NCBI GenBank assembly: GCA_013821985.1
Contig: PNJQ01000034.1
Span: 1-39,389, forward strand
Source of the DNA: Opitutus sp.
GTDB taxonomy: Bacteria; Verrucomicrobiota; Verrucomicrobiia; Opitutales; Opitutaceae
Reading direction: 5' to 3'
Length of the DNA stretch: 39,389 nt
Under the pieces are notes generated by a model. It had not been told where the DNA came from. It saw only the letters and a program-made list of their open reading frames with translations, and searched no databases. The position numbers and the translations under genes are program-made. Below, one piece after another: positions 7,359 through 16,456 of this stretch; position 1 is the first letter of the stretch; the number at the start of each line of letters is the position of its first letter.

Positions 7359-9839
7359 TCAGCGGCGGCGCAAGGCGCGGATGCCCATCAGCGCGGCGAG
7401 GGTGAGTGCGGCCAGCGAAGACGGTGCGCCCCCGCCGCCGCCTCCACCGCCGGAGAGTGCAGGTGAGGGCGTCGGAGTCGGCGTGGGGGTTGGGGTCGGC
7501 GTGAGCGTGGCAGCGGCGGACAAGTTGAGCGTGGTCACGACGCCGTTGCCCGTGATGCGCCGCAGGGCCGCGTTGCCGGTGTCGGCAACGAAGACGTTCC
7601 CGGAGGCATCGAAGGCGAGGCCTTGGGGTTGGTTGAGATAGGCGCCGGTGCCGGTGCCGTCCTGCATCCCACCGATGCCGGGGAGACCGGCGAACGTGCT
7701 GACAACGCCCGCTGGGGTGATGCGGCGAATGGTGGAATTGCCGGTGTCGGCCACGAAAAGATTGCCGGAGCCGTCGATGGCGAGGCCGGTGGGGCGATTG
7801 AATAGGGCTCCCGCGCCCGTGCCGTCATCGGCGCCGCTGACGCCGGCGAGTCCGGCGAAGGTGGTCACGCTCGTGCCGCCGGCGGCGAAGCGGCGGATCG
7901 TGTTGTTGGTGGTGTCGGCGACGAAGACGTTGCCGGCGGCGTCAACCGCGACGCCCGAAGGCGAGTTGAAGCGAGCGGCGGTTCCGGTCCCATCCGCCGT
8001 GCCGCTTTGGCCGGCGGTGCCGGCAACGGTGGTGACGGTGCCGTTCGAGCTGACCCGGCGGATCGTGTGGCTCAGCGTGTCGGCCACGACGAAGTTGCCG
8101 CTGGGCTCGTGGGCGACGGCCTGCGGGCCGTTGAGTCCGGTGGCGAGCGTTGTGACCGCTCCGGCGGTGGTGGCGGTGCGGAGGGAACCGTTGCCCGAGT
8201 CGGCGAGGCGCAGCGTGGAGCCGGCGAGGGCGAGCCCGCGCGGCTGATTGAAGCGGGCGGTCGTGCCGGAACCGTCGGCTGCGCCGGAACTGCCGCTCGA
8301 TCCGGCGAGCGCGCTGACGACGCCAGCGCTCGTCACGGCGTGCAGAACGTTGGTCGACGGATCGGTGACGTAGAGGTTGCCGGCACTGTCCACGCCCAAG
8401 CCGACGGGCTGGGCGATGACAATTGGGTTCACGGTGAGCGTAATGGCGGAGCTGGTCGTGGAGCCGGCGGAATTCGTGACGACAACGGTGTAACTGGCGG
8501 CATCGGCCGAGGAGACGGACGGAAGCGTGAGGGTGGAAGAGGTGGCGCCGGCGAGGGCGGTCCCGTTGCGCCGCCACTGGTAGCTCAGCGGTCCGGTGCC
8601 GGACGCGGTGGCGCTGAGGCTGACGGTGTTGCCGGTGGTGGCGACTTGGGAGGTGACGGGCACGGAGACCGAGGGCGCCGTGCCGCCGGGCGATGACGTC
8701 GCGCTGGCGCGGCTTACGCGGTCAGTCGTGCGCTTGAAGGCGGGCCACGGCGCGGACGTCGCCAGCGCCTGGCCGCTGCCGCGGATCGAATAGAGCCGGC
8801 GATCGGCCGAGCCGACGTAGATCGTCCCGTCGCCGGCGACGACGGGAGACGAGTCCACGAAGTCGCCGGTGGTGACGCGCCAGCGTTGCGAGCCGTCGGC
8901 GTTGAGCCCGTAAACATAGAGGCTGGCGCCGACGATGAGCGAGCCGTCGGCGCGCAGCGCGGCGCTGGAATAAATCTCGGCCCCGAGATTCGCGCGCCAG
9001 ACGAGCGAGCCGCTGGCGGCACTGATGGCGTAGAAATAGCCGTCCAATGAACCGACATAAACGGTGCCGCCGACGCTCACGATCGGCGAGGCGGCGATGG
9101 CCGCGCCGGTGGCGTATTCCCAGCGCTTCGCGCCGGTGGCGCCGTCGAGCGCGTAGAGTTTGCCGTTCGCGCTGCCGACGAACACGGTGCCGTCGGCGCC
9201 GAGGGCGGGCGAGGAGGTGACATTGTCGCCCGTGTCGAATTGCCAGCGCAACGCGCCGGCGGCGGTGAGCGCATAGACGTTGTTGTCGTAGCTGCCGAAA
9301 TACACGGTGCCGTCGCTGCCGATCGCGGGGGCGGAGTCGATCCAGTCGGCGACAAGGTAGGTCCACTTCCCGGTGCCGTTCGGGTTGACGGCGTGAAGCG
9401 TGCGGTCGCCAGACCCGATGTAGATGGTGCCGTCGGCGGCGACGGCCGGCGAAGACGCGATGAACCCGAGGGCTGTGTAGCTCCAGCGGGTGGTGCCATT
9501 GGCCGGATCGATGGCGTAGAGTTTGCCGTCCCACGAGCCGACGTAGATCGTGCCATCGGTGCCGATCGCGGGCGACGAGCTGATCCAGTCCGTGGTGCCC
9601 GAGAACTGCCAGCGGAGCGAACCGTCGGGTCGGATGGCGTAGAGACGGCTTTGCGTGGACGTGGCGGGTTCGTTGCCGACGTAGATCGTGCCGTCGCTGG
9701 CGAGCGCGGGCGAACTGCCGATCGGGCCGGAGGTGAGGAAGGACCAAAGGGTCGAGCCCTCCGCCTGAGCTTGTGCGGCGCCGGGGAGCAGGCCGCCGAG
9801 CGCGGCGACGCCGAGAATGGTCCGAAGAAAGGTTCTCAT
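7359..9839 (-). CDS. Secreted double beta-propeller protein with Ig-like domain and Gly-rich C-terminal anchor
   Basis: Predicted exported protein of 826 residues, function unknown. A signal peptide covers about residues 1-25 (cut near AAQAQA-EG). Eight PQQ-like blades follow (about 34-365), each with an SSPA-x-DGT-(I/V)YVGS pattern, forming a complete eight-bladed propeller. An Ig-like domain lies at about 385-465 and six NHL repeats at about 470-770, each with GLAxDxxGNxFVADTxNxxIRR. The tail is a TP-repeat linker, an eight-Gly run, a hydrophobic helix and a final RRR, like GlyGly-CTERM sorting signals. The start ATG shares one base with the kinase stop (TGATG), so it is third gene of a coupled operon and is expected to work with the kinase and outer-membrane protein. 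A ligand-sensing or scaffold role is inference. Confidence 0.87.
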
Positions 9840-11170
9840 CACGGGACGGAACGAAGAGGAAAGGAAATGCGGAGGCGGAAGCAGGCGCCTCCGGCTGGGA
9901 GACCCTCGTGCGCCAATTCCGCGCCGAGATGCAACGCGAGCTGGCGGCAAATCGCGAGACCGATTCCGGCTCCGTCGGCCTTGGAGCTGAAAGTCGGCTC
10001 GAAAAGTCGGGTGGCGACCGCCGCCGACAGGCCGGGACCGTTGTCCTCGATGCGGAAAATCCACGCGGAGGCGTCCTCGTCAGCCCGCAGCGCGACGCGG
10101 CCGGTGTTGGCGGGCGCGGCCTCGACGGCATTGCGGGCGAGATTGCGGAGAATGGCGCCGGCGAGGGCGGCGGTGCGGTGGTCGAGCGGTCGCAGGGCGG
10201 CCGGCTCCAAATCGAGGGTGACACCGCGCGCGGCGGCGAGTTCGGCGACGTCGCGCGCCACGAGGTCGAGCAGTTCGCGCGGCGAAACTTCGTAGGCGAG
10301 GCCGGATTTTTCCTCGCGCAGGAGGGTGACGACATCGTCGACCATCTGCCGGATGCGGCGGGCGGCGGCGCTGGCCTCGCGGAGGGTTGCGGCGCTTTCG
10401 GCGGCCGGCGCGCGCTCGAGGGTGGCGAGGCCGGCCACGGGATTGCGGAGCCCGTGCACGAGGTGCGCGGCGAGCGCGCCGAGGGCGGAGGTTTTGGCGG
10501 CGAAGGCGAGTTCGCGATTCGCGTGGAGGAGGTCTTCGGTGCGCGCGCGGAGCGTCGCCTCGGCACGGGCGAGCTGCCGGAACATCAGGTTGAGCACGAG
10601 TGCGAGCGTGGCTCCGGTGACCAGCCAGACGATCAGCGCCTGCTGGGCGAGGCGCCGGTCGAGCGCGGCGAACTCGCGCCGGACGGCGGCGCCGTCGATC
10701 CAGAAGCGGACCGCACCGGTCACGTCCGGCGAATCCGGCTCGTGGAGCGGCACCGTGATCTCGAGAGGTTTCTCGTCGCCGGCGAGCAGCCGGGCGAGCG
10801 GCTCGCGCCGTCGCAGTTGCGCCCAGTCCTCCACCGACGGTGCGGCGATGCCGAGCGCGGCGCCGACACCGGAGGTCGCTTGGCCGTCGGGCGTGAAGGT
10901 TTCGACCGCGATGACGTTCGGCAGGCGCGTGGCGGCGAGGGTGAGCAGCGCAAATTCGCGGTCGGACGCGGCCAGGCCCAGTGAACCGACGCGCTCCTGC
11001 TCGAGCGCGCGTTGCCAAACCGTGATCGCGTGGAGCGTGGCGGCCTCGCGTGCGAGGGTTTGCGCGCGCAGGCTTGCGCGTTGTCCGGCCGCGAGCAGCG
11101 CGAGCGCGACGGCGAGGCCGGCAAGCGAGGCGCCGAGAAGCCACGCGCGTGTCGGGCGGAGCAGGCTCAT
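9839..11170 (-). CDS. Membrane sensor histidine kinase
   Basis: Two-component sensor of 443 residues. TM1 spans about residues 8-28 and TM2 about 176-198, enclosing a periplasmic sensor region of about 145 residues with no recognised fold. A short coiled linker leads to the H-box AHLVHGLRNPVAGL (phosphoacceptor His near residue 239). The ATPase core shows the N-box NLARNAVEA, the G1 box IEDNGPGL and the G2 box GAGIGLAICRQLA. The start ATG overlaps the stop of the upstream outer-membrane protein by ATGA, and its own stop overlaps the propeller gene. The likely partner is the sigma-54-type regulator at 12964-14391, the only response regulator in the window. The signal sensed is unknown. Confidence 0.92.
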   Translation of the reverse strand: MSLLRPTRAWLLGASLAGLAVALALLAAGQRASLRAQTLAREAATLHAITVWQRALEQERVGSLGLAASDREFALLTLAATRLPNVIAVETFTPDGQATSGVGAALGIAAPSVEDWAQLRRREPLARLLAGDEKPLEITVPLHEPDSPDVTGAVRFWIDGAAVRREFAALDRRLAQQALIVWLVTGATLALVLNLMFRQLARAEATLRARTEDLLHANRELAFAAKTSALGALAAHLVHGLRNPVAGLATLERAPAAESAATLREASAAARRIRQMVDDVVTLLREEKSGLAYEVSPRELLDLVARDVAELAAARGVTLDLEPAALRPLDHRTAALAGAILRNLARNAVEAAPANTGRVALRADEDASAWIFRIEDNGPGLSAAVATRLFEPTFSSKADGAGIGLAICRQLALHLGAELAHEGLPAGGACFRLRISFPLRSVP

Positions 11171-12309
11171 GGCGCGGCGCCCAAGCTGTCCCAGCTCACC
11201 CGCACACCCGCGTAGACGGTGTGAACCGTGAAACGGGAGCGATCGTCGTTGGAGCGGGATTGCTCGCGCTCGAGGTGAAGGAATCCGGCGAGGCGCTCGG
11301 TGAACCGGTGGGTGATTTCCCAGGAAAGCCGAAGCTCGTTCTTGCGGCGGATGGCGGGATTGATGCCGACGCCGATGAACTGAACGGGGAAGCGGTAGCG
11401 GTTGGCCTCGGCGAGAAATTCGTTTTCCCACGGCGCGGTTTTCCAGCTGAGGCCGGCGCGGGCCGTGTCGCGGTCGTAATCGAAATAACCGGTGCCGTTG
11501 TCGCGGCTCCACTGGCGCCCGAGCGCGGCGGAAAAGCGGAGATTCTTCGCCGTGTCGAAAATCTGGAGCCACTGGAGCAGGCCTTCGGTCTGGCGGGTTT
11601 CCAGCTGGGTGCCGGGCAGTGGGCGGCCCGCGACCGTGACTTGCGGGCGCGAGTCGTGATCGCGCAGGCGCCGGGTGACAACGGCGCTCAGTTCGGACCC
11701 GTGACCCCAGGCGCGACCGAAGGCGAAGGAACCTTCGGTGTCACGGTAGCCGTCGAGGTCGTCGCGATAGGTGTCGCGGCGAGCGAGAACTTTCGCCTCG
11801 AACCAGAAAGGGGCGAGCGTCCAGCGCGCGCTCGGGCCGGTCGCGAAGCCGGTGACGCGAAGCTGCGCCGTGGATAGCTCGGTCTCCGTCACGGAAACAT
11901 CGAGCACCTGATCCAGGTGGTAGGCTTGGAGGAACCAGACGGCCTTGAGGGCGGTGCTCGGTTGCCAGCGGGCTTCGCCGGCGAAGATGGCGGTGCGTTC
12001 GCGGTCGGTGATTTCGCCGGAGAGGTAGCGGTTCTCCAGCAGGTTGAGGTAGGCGTAGCCATCGAAGGCGCCGGCCGGAACGCGCAGCGTCATCACGTCG
12101 ATTTCGGCGCGCAGGAGCGGACTGCGCTCGGGTCGCGTGGGACTCAGCAGGAGGTTGTCGCGATACCCGCCGGCGAGACTGGCGTCGATCGTGGTGCTCC
12201 AGGTGGGCAGCTCGGGCAACTCAGGCCACTCGGATGGCGGGTTGGCCGCGAGGGTGGTGGTGCTGGCGGCGAGGACCCAGCAGGTGAGGCGGAACGGGAG
12301 GGGGCGCAT
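11167..12309 (-). CDS. Predicted outer-membrane beta-barrel protein
   Basis: Exported protein of 380 residues, family not recognised. The signal peptide is about residues 1-21 (MRPLPFRLTCWVLAASTTTLA, then ANPP). The rest is built of alternating short strands rich in Trp, Tyr and Arg, for example GYAYLNLLENRYLSG, WTLAPFWFEAKVLARRD and RFTVHTVYAGVRVSW, as expected for a transmembrane barrel of 14 or more strands. The barrel-closing strand seems to end at VRVSW; seven more residues (DSLGAAP) follow, created by the ATGA overlap with the kinase gene. First gene of the operon with the kinase and propeller protein; its start lies 59 bases from the upstream terminator. A porin, sensor or assembly role cannot be told apart. 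Confidence 0.72.
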   Translation of the reverse strand: MRPLPFRLTCWVLAASTTTLAANPPSEWPELPELPTWSTTIDASLAGGYRDNLLLSPTRPERSPLLRAEIDVMTLRVPAGAFDGYAYLNLLENRYLSGEITDRERTAIFAGEARWQPSTALKAVWFLQAYHLDQVLDVSVTETELSTAQLRVTGFATGPSARWTLAPFWFEAKVLARRDTYRDDLDGYRDTEGSFAFGRAWGHGSELSAVVTRRLRDHDSRPQVTVAGRPLPGTQLETRQTEGLLQWLQIFDTAKNLRFSAALGRQWSRDNGTGYFDYDRDTARAGLSWKTAPWENEFLAEANRYRFPVQFIGVGINPAIRRKNELRLSWEITHRFTERLAGFLHLEREQSRSNDDRSRFTVHTVYAGVRVSWDSLGAAP

Positions 12310-12367
12310 GGGTGCGTCTCGAAGAGACGATGGCGAGCGAGGGCGCGCTACGTGGGTCAGTGAAATA

Positions 12368-12400
12368 CAAAAAGACACCCCTCCGCAAGCGGGGGTGTCT
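12368..12400 (-). terminator. Rho-independent terminator after the small secreted helical protein
   Basis: Read on the minus strand, AGACACCCC pairs with GGGGTGTCT around a 10-base loop and is followed by TTTTTG. It lies 26 bases past the stop of the 12426-12815 gene and separates it from the outer-membrane protein, kinase and propeller operon, which must therefore have its own promoter between about 12310 and 12367. Confidence 0.88.
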
Positions 12401-12425
12401 GCGTTGAATAAAGGAGCAGGGGAGA

Positions 12426-12815
12426 TCAGCCACCCGGAGGCGGCGTGGGGCGTGCCTGGTCGCGACGGGCCTTGATGGCATCGCGGATGGCCTTGGCGAG
12501 GTCGCGCTGGGCCGCGTGGGTCTCGCGCATGAGCTGCTGGAGCTGGCTGCGGATGGCATCGCGCTGCTCGGGGGTGGCGTTCTTGAGTTGCTCGAGGAGC
12601 GTCTTGCGCTGGTCGAGAATGGTTTGGATCGCGGCACGGTTGGAATCGACGATGGCTTTCAGGGTGGCGCCCATGGCCGGATCCATGCGGGGCGCAGTCG
12701 GCTGCGAACCGGTGGCCGGGGGCGTGCTGACCGTTCCACCGACCATTTGTGCGCTCAGCGAGGTGGCGGCGAAGCCGAGAGTCGCGAGGGTGACGAGAGT
12801 GCGGAGTAGTTTCAT
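12426..12815 (-). CDS. Small secreted helical protein
   Basis: Protein of 129 residues, family not recognised. The signal peptide is about residues 1-23 (MKLLRTLVTLATLGFAATSLSAQ). A short Pro/Thr linker leads to a charged, heptad-like helix (about residues 50-120, ILDQRKTLLEQLKNATPEQR and on) and a PTPPPGG tail. The general look recalls periplasmic Spy/CpxP-type or Heavy-metal-sensor-type helical proteins, but the LTxxQ motif is not present, so no family is claimed. A sigma-54 promoter match lies just upstream, leaving a leader of only about four bases before the ATG, and two dyad sites lie further up. It is the best candidate direct target of the adjacent regulator. It is monocistronic with its own terminator. 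Confidence 0.75.
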   Translation of the reverse strand: MKLLRTLVTLATLGFAATSLSAQMVGGTVSTPPATGSQPTAPRMDPAMGATLKAIVDSNRAAIQTILDQRKTLLEQLKNATPEQRDAIRSQLQQLMRETHAAQRDLAKAIRDAIKARRDQARPTPPPGG

Positions 12816-12829
12816 GGTGCCGGTGGGAT

Positions 12830-12846
12830 AGCGAGTGTGGTGCCAA
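12830..12846 (-). promoter_or_regulatory. Sigma-54 (RpoN) promoter match
   Basis: Minus strand reads TTGGCACCACACTCGCT. Against the RpoN consensus TTGGCACG-N4-TTGCW it keeps the -24 GG and -12 GC with exactly 10 bases between them and differs only at the G after GGCAC and one T. The predicted start of transcription is about 12819-12820, four to five bases before the ATG at 12815, so the transcript would be nearly leaderless. The adjacent gene encodes a sigma-54 activator, which supports it. Confidence 0.65.
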
Positions 12847-12921
12847 CGGACGAGGATGTCCGCGTAAGTCGCTGGCCGGGCGCGGCGAATATTTTTTCGG
12901 CGGAGGAACGGCGCATTGCGA

Positions 12922-12939
12922 CTGGGAAATGGTTCCCAG
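12922..12939. promoter_or_regulatory. Dyad site 1, candidate enhancer for the sigma-54 activator
   Basis: CTGGGAAATGGTTCCCAG is an 18-base dyad with 7-bp arms. Its centre is about 110 bp upstream of the predicted sigma-54 start site, a usual distance for enhancer sites of NtrC-type activators. It lies in the noncoding gap right after the activator gene. Confidence 0.55.
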
Positions 12940-12953
12940 CCGCAGAGCTGCCG

Positions 12954-12971
12954 TTGGGAAGATTTACCCAG
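12954..12971. promoter_or_regulatory. Dyad site 2, candidate enhancer for the sigma-54 activator
   Basis: TTGGGAAGATTTACCCAG is an imperfect 18-base dyad that matches site 1 at 13 of 18 positions when read on the minus strand. Its centre is 32 bp from that of site 1, about three helical turns, so both would face the same side of the DNA. It spans the stop codon of the regulator gene. Confidence 0.5.
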
Positions 12972-14391
12972 CCGCCGAATCAATGCCATCGCCACCGTTC
13001 TGGCCTTTGAGGCGATAGCGCAAGGAATCGCGTGAAACGCCGAGGAGGCGCGCGGCGGCCGAGACGTTGCCGCCGGCTTGGTCGAGCGCCCGGCGGATGA
13101 GGAGGTCGATGGCCTGCTCGAGCGAAAAGCCCTCGGCGGGGAAATTGAAATGCTCGTTCAACCAACCGGCGCCGGCGGGTCCACCGGCGGACTCGAGCGC
13201 ACGGAAAGTGAGGCCGTCGTCGGGGTGAAAAACGAGCGCGCGCTCGATCTCGTGCGCGAGTTCGCGGACATTGCCGGGCCACCGGTGCGCGCGCAACCGC
13301 GCGGCGCCCGCGGGAGGAATCTCGGGCGCGGTGCGTCCGTATTTCGCGGCGATGCGCGCGGCGAGTTCCTGGGCGAGCGGCACGATGTCGTCGCCGCGGT
13401 CGCGGAGCGGCGGGAGTTTGACGCGGAAGAGATCGAGGCGTTGCAGCAGATCGGCGCGGAAAGCGCCGGCGCGGACCCGTTCGCGGAGATCGGCGTTGCT
13501 CGCGGCGACGATGCGCACGTCGACGGGGCGCGTGCGGTTCGAGCCAACGCGGCGGATGACGCGGTCCTCGATCGCGGTGAGAAGTTTCGCCTGTGTTGGC
13601 AGCGCGAGGCTGGGGATTTCGTCGAGGAAGAGCGTGCCGCCCTCGGCGGCTTCCATCAGGCCGATGCGTGTCGCCGCGGCGTCGGTGAATGCGCCGCGCT
13701 CGTGGCCGAAGAGTTCCGACTCGGCGAGCGCCTCGGGCAACGCTGAGCAGTTGATCTCGATCAACGGGCCTTTCGCGCGCGGACCCCGGTGGTGCAGCCA
13801 GCGGGCGATCGTGGTCTTGCCGGTGCCGGTTTCGCCTTCGATGAGCACCGGCGGCGGCGTCTCCATGCTCTGCGTGTCGGCGGCGAGAATGCGCTGGAAT
13901 TGCAGCTCGATGCCGCGGAGGCTGTCGCCGAAATGCAGCTCACCGGACGCGGGGCGGGAGCCGCGGTCGCCGGCGGAGGAGGCGCGAAACTCGTCGGCGC
14001 GCGCGCGCCGTTTTTCGCGCCAGGCGCGCGCGAGGCGCAGCGGGAGTTCGTCGGCATCGAAGGGTTTCGAAAGATAGTCGGACGCGCCGAGTTTCAACGC
14101 CTCGACCGCACCGGCGATGCCGCCTTCGGCCGTCATCACGACGACGACGGTGCCGTCGGCGAGCGGGCCGCCGGGACGGAGTAGATCGGGGCCGCGGCCG
14201 TCGGGCAGGTTGACGTCGAGGAGCGCGAGGTCGAACGCCTCGGCGCGCGCGAGGCGCTCGGCGTCTCGCACGGTGGCGGCGCTGGCGACCGTGGCGCCTT
14301 GGGACTTGAGCACCGCGGCGAGACGGCGGGAGAGGAGGGGTTCGTCCTCGAGCAGCAGCACTTGGAGACCGTTGAGCGCGGCATTCACGGT
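12964..14391 (-). CDS. Sigma-54-dependent response regulator (NtrC family)
   Basis: Transcription activator of 475 residues. An N-terminal receiver domain (about 8-120) has acidic residues 14-15, phosphoacceptor Asp near 58 (ALLDVNLPDG) and the conserved Lys in SKPF. The AAA+ domain follows with Walker A GETGTGKT (about 185-192), Walker B GGTLFLDEI (about 250-258) and RWPGNVREL near 370. The sigma-54-contacting loop reads GAFTDA instead of GAFTGA. A Fis-type helix-turn-helix ends the protein (GGNVSAAARLLGVSRDSLRYRL). The GTG at 14391 is chosen because it starts seven residues before the receiver fold; a TTG at 14430 is possible. A TATAAA box lies upstream at 14499-14504 on the minus strand. 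Its likely kinase partner is encoded two genes downstream. Confidence 0.93.
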   Translation of the reverse strand, partial: TVNAALNGLQVLLLEDEPLLSRRLAAVLKSQGATVASAATVRDAERLARAEAFDLALLDVNLPDGRGPDLLRPGGPLADGTVVVVMTAEGGIAGAVEALKLGASDYLSKPFDADELPLRLARAWREKRRARADEFRASSAGDRGSRPASGELHFGDSLRGIELQFQRILAADTQSMETPPPVLIEGETGTGKTTIARWLHHRGPRAKGPLIEINCSALPEALAESELFGHERGAFTDAAATRIGLMEAAEGGTLFLDEIPSLALPTQAKLLTAIEDRVIRRVGSNRTRPVDVRIVAASNADLRERVRAGAFRADLLQRLDLFRVKLPPLRDRGDDIVPLAQELAARIAAKYGRTAPEIPPAGAARLRAHRWPGNVRELAHEIERALVFHPDDGLTFRALESAGGPAGAGWLNEHFNFPAEGFSLEQAIDLLIRRALDQAGGNVSAAARLLGVSRDSLRYRLKGQNGGDGIDSAAG

Positions 14392-14534
14392 CGGGTTTGA
14401 AGCACGCCGCGTTCGACGCGGCGACAGCAAATCAGCGGGCGACGCGGGCGAGCGTTCCGGGTTCTTGAAAGGGTGTCAGCGTCGCGGCGGGCCGCGCGTT
14501 TATACCGTAATACGATATGAACGTTCTTGGGACG

Positions 14535-14936
14535 TCAGCGGGAGGCGCGGTAGGCGGCGATCACGGGGTAGTCGGCGGCGGCGAGGTCGTAGCGCGTGAG
14601 GTCGTCGAGTTTCACCCACGCGATCGCCACGTGCTCATGCGGATGCGGCTCAAGGGAACCGGTCTCGATCGCGCATACGAACGGAATCATCTCGATCACG
14701 ACGCGCCCGTAGTCGTGCACGAACGGCGGCAGCGCGCGCGTGAGGCGGATCGCGCAGCCGAGTTCCTCGCGGATTTCGCGCACGATCGCATCCGCGGCGG
14801 CCTCGCCCGGCTCGACCTTGCCGCCCGCGAATTCCCATTTCAGCGGCAGAAGTTTGTGCGGCGGCCGCTGCGCGAGCAAGACGAGTCCGTCGCGTTCGAT
14901 GACGGCGCAGACCACGGGAACGGGGGGCGAGGACAC
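14535..14936 (-). CDS. Nudix hydrolase, MutT-like
   Basis: Nucleotide pyrophosphohydrolase of 133 residues. The complete Nudix box is present: GGKVEPGE, then REIREELGC, matching GX5EX7REUXEEXGU. The segment VVCAVIERDGLVLLAQRPPHK followed by WEFAGGKVEPGE is typical of the MutT/CTP pyrophosphohydrolase branch that clears 8-oxo-dGTP or related nucleotides. The GTG at 14936 is chosen because it sits just before the first beta strand and gives the normal family length; the open frame further upstream has no family sequence. It is divergent from the small membrane-protein gene at 15056. The exact substrate cannot be read from sequence. Confidence 0.88.
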   Translation of the reverse strand: MSSPPVPVVCAVIERDGLVLLAQRPPHKLLPLKWEFAGGKVEPGEAAADAIVREIREELGCAIRLTRALPPFVHDYGRVVIEMIPFVCAIETGSLEPHPHEHVAIAWVKLDDLTRYDLAAADYPVIAAYRASR

Positions 14937-15055
14937 AGCCCGAGAAAAGTCGAAATGGCGGACGGCACAACGCCGGACGCAACCTGCAATCAAACTTCCG
15001 CTTTGTAGCCGCCGGACGAATTCCGCGCTTGGCTGCGCTTCGATCCGCCCCCTAC

Positions 15056-15283
15056 ATGGACGCGATGTCGGACAAGGAACCGGTGATTGAGCTGGAGCCG
15101 AGGAATCCATTCTCCTGGAGAGTGGTCGTGGCCTTCCTCGCGGCCTGGCTGGTGGTGCTGGCGCTGGCCTGGGTGTTGAAAAACAGCCTGCTCCGCCTGC
15201 TGCTGCCGCTTATCGGGACACTGTTCGTCGTCTATTTGGGAGTCTGCACTCTGCTGCTCCTGCGTCATCGCAACCGCCGTTAA
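15056..15283 (+). CDS. Small two-helix membrane protein
   Basis: Protein of 75 residues, family not recognised. After a charged N-terminus (MDAMSDKEPVIELEPRNPF) there are two hydrophobic helices (about VVVAFLAAWLVVLALAWVL and LLLPLIGTLFVVYLGVCTLL) and a basic end RHRNRR. An ATG at 15065 is an alternative start. It ends 9 bases before the SPFH protein gene, so the two are probably co-transcribed, and it may be a membrane partner of the SPFH protein. The position and codon pattern support a real gene. Confidence 0.65.
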   Translation: MDAMSDKEPVIELEPRNPFSWRVVVAFLAAWLVVLALAWVLKNSLLRLLLPLIGTLFVVYLGVCTLLLLRHRNRR

Positions 15284-15292
15284 TTCGCCCCT

Positions 15293-16456
15293 ATGAAGCA
15301 AATCATCTCCCTCGTGGCCGCCGGGATCATTGTCATCGTCGTGCTCCTCGCGAGCGTGTTCATCGTCGATATCGTCACCGTCGAGGGCAACGAAATCGGC
15401 GTGAAGGAAACGTGGGACGGCGGCGTCGAGGCCCAGCCGCTCCAGCCGAAGACTTACGTGCTGTTCCCGGGATTCACCCAGAAGGTTTTCATCTACGACA
15501 TGTCCTCGCAGGTCTTCGTGATGAACGACCAGGCGAATGAAACCTTCGGCGAAGGACGCCGGCGCGACAGCTACCTCGTGCAATCTTCCGAAGGCCAGGA
15601 CATGCGCATCTCGCTCAACATCCGGTGGCGTCGCGATCCGGCTTTCGTGGTGGAGATGCACAAAACCGTGCGTGGCAACGTGGAGGAAAAAGTCCTGCGT
15701 CCCGAACTGATGCGCGTGGTGAAGGACAAAGCCACGACCCGCACGGCGCTCGACGCCTACTCCGGCGAAGGGCTCGTGAAGTTGCAGAGCGACATCTCCA
15801 CCGCGCTGATGGCGTCCGATGCGGAACTCCGCAAACGCGGCGTCATTGTCGAAAATTTTGTCATCGAGCACATCGGCCTCGACCCGGCCTACGTCGAACA
15901 GATCAAGGCTCGTCAGGTTGCCGTGCAGGAACGTCTCCGCGCCATCGAGGAGACCCGCGCGGCCGAAGCCAAGGCTGACCGGGCGAAGGCCGAGGCGCAG
16001 GCGGCATTTGAGAAGGCGGTGGTCGATGCGAAGCGCGACAAGGAAGTCGGCATTCTCATGGCGCAGAAGCAGGCCGAACAGCAGGTGCTTGATGCCACCG
16101 CTGCGGCCAAGCGCGTCGAACTCGCGGCCGAAGCCGACAAGAATCGCAACGTGCTCGCCGCGCAAGGTGAGCAGGAGGCGGCATTGTTGCGCGCCCAGGC
16201 GATTCAAGCGCTCGGCAAGGCCGAGGCTGAAGCGACGCGACTGAAGCTGAGCGCCTATTCCGCCGAAGGCTCCGAGGCGTTCGTGCGCATCGAGGTGGCG
16301 AAGTCGATGAGCGATGCCTTCAAAAATATTTCCGGCTATCTGCCGCAGGACATGACGGTGAATCTGCTGAGCGATTCGTTCCTGCGCGCGGTGGAATCCG
16401 TGGTCGGCGGCAAGGTCGCTCCGCCGGTCCCTGCCAATCAAACGCCGAACCGCTGA
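15293..16456 (+). CDS. SPFH/Band 7 (prohibitin-like) membrane protein
   Basis: Protein of 387 residues expected to form large membrane-attached ring assemblies like prohibitin, HflK/HflC or flotillin, which scaffold membrane domains or control proteases. One N-terminal transmembrane helix covers about residues 5-27 (AAGIIVIVVLLASVFIVDIV). The Band 7 domain spans about 28-210 with the prohibitin-like segment GVIVENFVIEHIGLDPAYVEQI. A long Ala/Glu/Lys-rich coiled coil (about 210-320) leads to a short C-terminal region. It follows a small membrane protein by 9 bases. There is no neighbouring hflK, NfeD or protease gene, so which SPFH subgroup it belongs to is open. Confidence 0.88.
   Translation: MKQIISLVAAGIIVIVVLLASVFIVDIVTVEGNEIGVKETWDGGVEAQPLQPKTYVLFPGFTQKVFIYDMSSQVFVMNDQANETFGEGRRRDSYLVQSSEGQDMRISLNIRWRRDPAFVVEMHKTVRGNVEEKVLRPELMRVVKDKATTRTALDAYSGEGLVKLQSDISTALMASDAELRKRGVIVENFVIEHIGLDPAYVEQIKARQVAVQERLRAIEETRAAEAKADRAKAEAQAAFEKAVVDAKRDKEVGILMAQKQAEQQVLDATAAAKRVELAAEADKNRNVLAAQGEQEAALLRAQAIQALGKAEAEATRLKLSAYSAEGSEAFVRIEVAKSMSDAFKNISGYLPQDMTVNLLSDSFLRAVESVVGGKVAPPVPANQTPNR

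Follow-up and report, generated by a model that had tools for sequence, protein, structure and literature searches.

A candidate sigma-54 enhancer circuit in Opitutus whose layout recurs in related bacteria

Between a gene for an NtrC-type regulator and a gene for a small secreted protein, a stretch of DNA from an Opitutus species (39,389 nt of contig PNJQ01000034.1, referred to here as the window) carries what resembles a sigma-54 promoter preceded by two dyads. The question that this locus raises is whether these parts form a working regulatory unit and, if so, what it controls. A sequence-only reading had proposed an enhancer-dependent circuit beside the regulator gene, and the conserved layout of dyads and promoter described below supports that proposal. 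The barrel and kinase genes downstream, the terminator-like hairpin, and the repeated occurrence of very short predicted leaders go beyond that reading. As related bacteria share this layout, the locus looks like a real, undescribed envelope-response circuit. Judged from sequence, its control region probably switches on the gene for the small secreted protein together with those for an outer-membrane barrel and for the regulator's own sensor kinase. A local enhancer-dependent sigma-54 circuit, with the small periplasmic protein taking part in an envelope response, is the best explanation of the locus, and we hold it with considerable confidence.

The genes and their order

On the minus strand the order is NtrC-type regulator, dyads, sigma-54 promoter, small secreted protein, hairpin, barrel, and kinase. 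The window belongs to a 3.74-Mb draft genome that is 79% complete. Searches of the family, three in number and taken to cover the same 120 genomes, located the small protein in 19 genomes, the barrel in 24, and regulators scoring at least 499 bits in 22, with a split regulator gene in a 23rd. These high-scoring regulators and the split gene (of G068) define what is called group A, to which later loci were added by hand, the grouping being made without a tree. Wherever the small protein was found, a group-A regulator and the barrel are present as well (19 of 19 genomes, lists copied by hand), and in each of the 21 group-A loci that were fetched whole the order runs from regulator to barrel to kinase, with an ORF for a small secreted protein between regulator and barrel. 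The module is nevertheless patchy, since the barrel is absent in seven of 12 congeners, two of which are less than 90% complete. Of 288 genomes searched across the phylum, 12 gave a barrel match, and six of the 12 belong to the window's own family.

The regulator (12964 to 14388, minus strand) consists of a receiver, a sigma-54 AAA+ domain, and a Fis-type HTH, as assigned by Pfam. The corresponding models all score above cut-off (Sigma54_activat 195.2, Response_reg 76.4, and HTH_8 41.3 bits), which bears out the NtrC-type activator that had been placed directly upstream of the small gene. Its GTG start at 14388 was inferred from the alignment, the ORF itself opening at 14430. Residue D60, presumably the phospho-acceptor aspartate, is invariant in all 26 aligned regulators. 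The same 26 share a G[AS]FTDA loop in place of the sigma-54-contacting GAFTGA, and GAFTDA is given among the variants that would retain activity (PMC4641369). The sensor histidine kinase (443 aa; 9839 to 11170, minus strand) scores above cut-off for HATPase_c (64.4 bits) and below it for HisKA (21.7 bits, cut-off 26.9), and its ATG overlaps the stop codon of the barrel gene. Regulator and kinase were also considered as NtrC, AtoC, Zra or Prs equivalogs, an assignment rejected on scores far below the cut-offs.

A sigma-54 circuit was expected to go together with an rpoN gene in the genome. The evidence here is mixed: no rpoN was found in the window's own 79%-complete draft, and all 12 congeners carry the gene. 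As rpoN was found in 54 of the 57 genomes searched, these 12 congeners among them, its absence is more likely due to the incompleteness of the draft.

The small protein (129 aa; 12426 to 12815, minus strand) is predicted to consist of a signal peptide, a low-confidence linker, and a helical hairpin formed by helices 46-79 and 82-121 of the AlphaFold model, with pLDDT of about 86-93 over most of the hairpin. It had been described as unrecognised and it stays so: no Pfam or NCBIfam model scores above cut-off, the sub-threshold Pfam hits of the alignment are scattered, each in one of 20 members, a comparison with PDB sequences returned nothing below E 0.09, and Foldseek gave no hits at E ≤0.001. 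The hairpin was dismissed as evidence of kinship, its shape being too common. Repeated helical units can be made out by eye in the small protein of some relatives, L110 among them.

If +1 lies 12 nt beyond the C in the -12 GC, transcription of the small gene is predicted to start at 12819, leaving a leader of 4 nt (12819-12816). This matches the leader of about four bases that had been noted as odd, and as a sign of either a leaderless transcript or a wrongly placed start. Since very short predicted leaders recur in several lineages, a misplaced start codon would seem less likely on sequence grounds. For 20 group-A promoters, with start codons picked by eye, the predicted leader is at most 14 nt in nine, two of these being 1 nt with GTG starts. 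In the congeners L220 and L221 it is 3 and 4 nt, and in L219, by a hand count, 4 nt; the leaders of L217 and of both small-gene copies in L218 are predicted at 25-30 nt.

Folding places an intrinsic-terminator-like hairpin (12373-12400) with a T-rich tail behind the small gene, at 12365 to 12400 on the minus strand. The hairpin has a free energy of -16.6 kcal/mol, and in the shuffle test it reached -16.9 against -16.8 for the best of 25 shuffles; a stricter terminator scan did not list it because its loop is too long for the scan rule. Hairpins of -15 kcal/mol or stronger before a T-rich tail, within 110 nt after the small gene, occur in 24 of 31 loci versus 27 of 775 shuffles, the seven without one being L093, L099, L100, L101, L102, L106, and the congener L217. 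Each of the two small-gene copies in L218 has its own hairpin, and among the sister-group loci that were folded (L119, L120, L124, L125, and L126) only L125 has one of such strength. The simplest reading is that most transcripts would end after the small gene and that some would continue into barrel and kinase.

The barrel (380 aa; 11167 to 12309, minus strand) is an outer-membrane beta-barrel by predicted structure (16 strands, pTM 0.76). Its structural matches are generic and porin-like, with TM-scores of about 0.4-0.5, and weak DUF481 hits were obtained for six of 18 members. The ORF list also contains a minus-strand ORF of 901 aa (7359-10064) with apparent PQQ/NHL-type repeats, the tail of which is glycine-rich, hydrophobic, and arginine-rich and resembles a C-terminal sorting signal.

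Taken together, these parts suggest the following mechanism. The kinase would phosphorylate the regulator, which, by what is known of its family, would occupy both dyads, three DNA turns apart, oligomerise, loop to the -24/-12 promoter, and open it by ATP hydrolysis. The first gene to be transcribed would be that of the small secreted helical-hairpin protein, and the hairpin behind it would pass only part of the transcripts into barrel and kinase; it is proposed that much of the small protein would therefore be made, and that the kinase would receive weak positive feedback. In the periplasm the small protein would act as a chaperone or as a feedback partner of the kinase in an envelope response, which, by analogy with ZraP beside ZraSR, is its most likely role.

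The circuit might be right and this last step wrong, in that the small protein could instead plug or otherwise partner the barrel, or belong to a surface structure, an alternative we regard as unlikely while giving it real weight. It draws on the presence of the barrel in every one of the 19 small-protein genomes, on the porin-like size of the predicted 16-strand barrel, a part that the Zra system lacks, and on the repeated helical units of L110 and other relatives. Neighbouring genes, however, travel together for many reasons, and a terminator between the small gene and the barrel speaks against the two proteins being made in equal amounts. The role as chaperone or feedback partner is preferred. 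A more specific picture, that of an undescribed Verrucomicrobiota module in which kinase, GAFTDA-type regulator, 16-strand barrel, and small protein make up a single feedback loop spanning the envelope, with near-whole-turn enhancer spacing, an enhancer often set in the coding end of the regulator, and a near-leaderless mRNA in several lineages, is offered tentatively and is rather less likely than not.

The predicted promoter and the dyads of the window

The RpoN-like site that had been read on the minus strand is present as described: positions 12846 to 12830 read TTGGCACCACACTCGCT, with the GG and GC 10 nt apart. The sigma-54 promoter consensus is TTGGCACGNNNNTTGCW, and 11 of its 13 specified positions agree with the site. 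The element was identified by promoter scoring and by comparison with relatives, where the TGGCAC-like context and the 10-nt GG/GC spacing recur ahead of the small gene. By its score alone the site is at chance level across the window, where one site of score ≥11 was seen against 0.95 expected, and eight of score ≥10 against 7.45 expected, in random sequence of the window's length and dinucleotide make-up; within any one stretch of 160 bp, read on one strand, 0.0019 would be expected. Although the score does not exclude chance, chance is set aside because of conservation. The interval from regulator to kinase contains exactly one site of score ≥10 in 19 of 21 loci, the others being L106 with three and L110 with none. 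A scan of positions 11000-15300 found no sigma-70-type promoter.

The two related dyads also lie where they had been reported. The distal dyad, CTGGGTAAATCTTCCCAA, spans 12954 to 12971 (minus strand, -125 from the -24 element), and the proximal dyad, CTGGGAACCATTTCCCAG, spans 12922 to 12939 (minus strand, -93), their centres being 32 bp apart. The distances to the start codon, earlier put at about 110 and 142 bp, come close to the measured ones, which are 107 and 139 bp from the edges and 115.5 and 147.5 bp from the centres. The distal dyad overlaps the stop codon of the regulator (12964-12966), a feature absent from the earlier description. A genome-wide search for the dyad, which the sequence-only reading had called for, found TGGGNANNNNTNCCCA at three places in the 3.74-Mb draft, two of them the window dyads and the third inside an ORF that looks ribulose-phosphate-epimerase-like; the reversed control pattern has no occurrence in the same draft.

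The spacer between dyads and promoter was searched for further signals. An A stands at -39 from the start of the -24 element in 87% of 31 promoters, with no motif around it. An IHF-like site was rejected, as perfect matches to the consensus occur in only four of 31 promoters. Nor is a positioned spacer motif claimed: the motif search scored 40.5 for 28 promoters against 29.5-37.2 for six shuffles that were run with fewer starts, and the positions were scattered. The promoter of L219 (score 9) was picked by eye and is included in the spacer-motif and IHF-type analyses and in the 39-promoter analysis given below.

Geometry of the putative enhancer in related loci

Conservation of the dyads in relatives that keep the regulator and the small gene had been named as one point on which the proposal would turn, and the dyads are conserved in group A, in congeners, and in a distant family. 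In 23 of 26 group-A loci, the window included, dyad sites at least 70 bp upstream of the predicted start occupy fixed places: they are 30-33 bp apart, and 89-94 bp separate the start of the nearer dyad from the -24 element; L093, L097, and L107 miss this geometry. The rule takes the two best-scoring dyads within 200 bp before each promoter, and in 3,100 shuffled regions the same geometry arises with a frequency of 0.0006, the distance ranges having been fixed after the loci had been seen, so that this is not a blind test. The 26 loci are not independent (L098-L100 with L131, and L107 with L108), and some are near-identical. L128 is very likely on the same contig as L217, and L132 and L144, whose contigs match those of L104 and L098 in length, were treated as their duplicates. 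Of the loci from the family search, the 26 do not include L110, which has no promoter of score ≥10, or L094/L095 (G089) and L105/L127 (G065), in which the module is split over contigs. From the second set, in which 20 of 80 loci were examined, L134, L136, L137, L138, L140-L143, L145, L157, and L182 were not carried into the 26, and L139 was counted with the sister group. By another measure, at least two TGGG-N8-CCCA cores (at most one mismatch in eight) precede 27 of 39 promoters versus 0.5% of shuffles.

Two loci separate the dyads from their usual surroundings. In L090 the regulator and the promoter lie about 5.3 kb apart, and the dyads (at -123 and -92 of the promoter) stay with the promoter and far from the regulator gene. 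L218 carries two copies of the small gene, both of them preceded by a separate pair of dyads (-123/-90 and -122/-91) and a separate promoter. This congener (G004:C110:1-9500) thus repeats the whole set in tandem, from the dyads through promoter and small gene to the terminator hairpin.

The spacing may be kept near whole turns of DNA, three in one group and four in a sister group (L119, L124, L125, L126, and L139), in which the dyads are 42-43 bp apart, about one turn more. These five loci have other, sometimes repeated, helical small proteins before a barrel gene. A clear dyad pair was seen in group B in L119, L124, L125, and L126, the remaining 12 of 16 loci being without one. L136 has dyads 42 bp apart and no promoter of score ≥10. 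Another, distant family (f40, L232-L236) has its genes arranged as regulator, barrel, kinase, and small gene, and a -24/-12 site precedes the small gene in all five loci. Dyads 33-34 bp apart can be read in all five, the nearer one of L233 ranking third by score, and the fixed core rule finds two cores in four of them. The assignment of small proteins in f40 is based on position, signal peptide, and composition, as they have no sequence match to that of the window at E 1. In a sixth relative (L237) the dyads are 23 bp apart. The window's own genome also contains a paralogous regulator, 55% identical (L111; G000:C42:29777-31123). Behind its gene come a -24/-12-like site, a single dyad (TTGGGTGCAGTTCCCAAA), a secreted ORF, an ORF of 503 aa, and a kinase; L111 would be a sister circuit with other targets.

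It could be argued that the dyads serve another DNA-binding protein or act in repression, with the regulator acting elsewhere or through the sites of a different activator. L134 and L137, whose regulators are 54% and 57% identical, have neither a dyad pair nor a promoter in place, and so keep a related regulator without the dyads. Yet dyads, promoter, and this group of regulators co-occur, the pattern has hardly any occurrence outside this promoter in the window's own genome, as expected of a local regulator with one target, and the distances fit those reported for NtrC sites (PMC7408454), so we consider this alternative improbable. That the -24/-12 match and the dyads are accidents of a GC-rich sequence, or side effects of how the regulator's coding region ends, is very improbable indeed: a score such as that of the promoter is expected about once per window, and the distal dyad overlaps the regulator stop codon in 14 of the 26 loci (hand count) and lies inside its coding end in L107 and L108, but the pairs persist 5 kb from the regulator gene in L090 and before the second small gene of L218, and shuffled regions hardly ever reproduce the geometry.

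If the enhancer-dependent circuit is real, a phylum that offers few genetic models would gain a compact sigma-54 system. Its binding motif is predicted, its enhancer geometry differs by about one DNA turn among relatives, and selection on enhancer spacing and helical phase would be directly testable. Two protein families of unknown function would be gained, along with an envelope response common to distant members of the phylum.

Comparison with known systems

No description of the module was found in a search of openly licensed literature, which is weak evidence of absence; a survey of sigma-54 regulons that includes Opitutia (PMC12316311) does not appear to mention it.

In its control region the module resembles the NtrC enhancer of glnA, where two dyad sites also lie far upstream of a sigma-54 promoter. 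The glnA sites are at -108 and -140, and the centres of the window dyads fall close to -112 and -144 relative to the predicted +1. Unlike glnA, however, the window has the half-site TTGGG where NtrC sites have TGCACC, the target genes differ, and there are no nitrogen-related genes among the four of the module. A review places the NtrC sites of glnA at about 90 and 140, and describes a two-site NtrC system of another organism as face-of-the-helix dependent (PMC7408454).

Regulator and kinase belong to families related to those of PrsK-PrsR of PEP-CTERM systems (TIGR02915 278.2 bits and TIGR02916 70.1 bits), and these scores are far below the cut-offs for PrsR/PrsK identity (502.6 and 300). No PEP-CTERM model is among the hits of the small protein.

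The closest parallel in organisation is ZraP-ZraSR of E. coli and Salmonella, whose sigma-54 regulator acts on the neighbouring gene for a periplasmic chaperone and on the genes of its own two-component pair (PMC7657598). The direct targets of ZraR are zraP, zraSR, and little else, and a role in envelope stress has been proposed (PMC7657598). In both systems a sigma-54 regulator and a kinase accompany the gene for a small periplasmic helical protein, which in the present case they would control. In contrast to ZraP-ZraSR, the regulator gene of the window lies upstream and in the same direction, the kinase gene ends the target operon, and a barrel is added. The components themselves do not detectably match those of the Zra system: none of 20 small-protein members matches a ZraP/Spy/CpxP-type Pfam family at E 0.01, ZraP (3lay) ranks 41 in Foldseek with E 1.8 and no PDB chain falls below E 0.09, and the regulator and kinase score 259 and 72.6 bits against ZraR and ZraS cut-offs of 760 and 479. 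Membership is not supported, and it is by analogy that the module of the window would work like ZraP-ZraSR.
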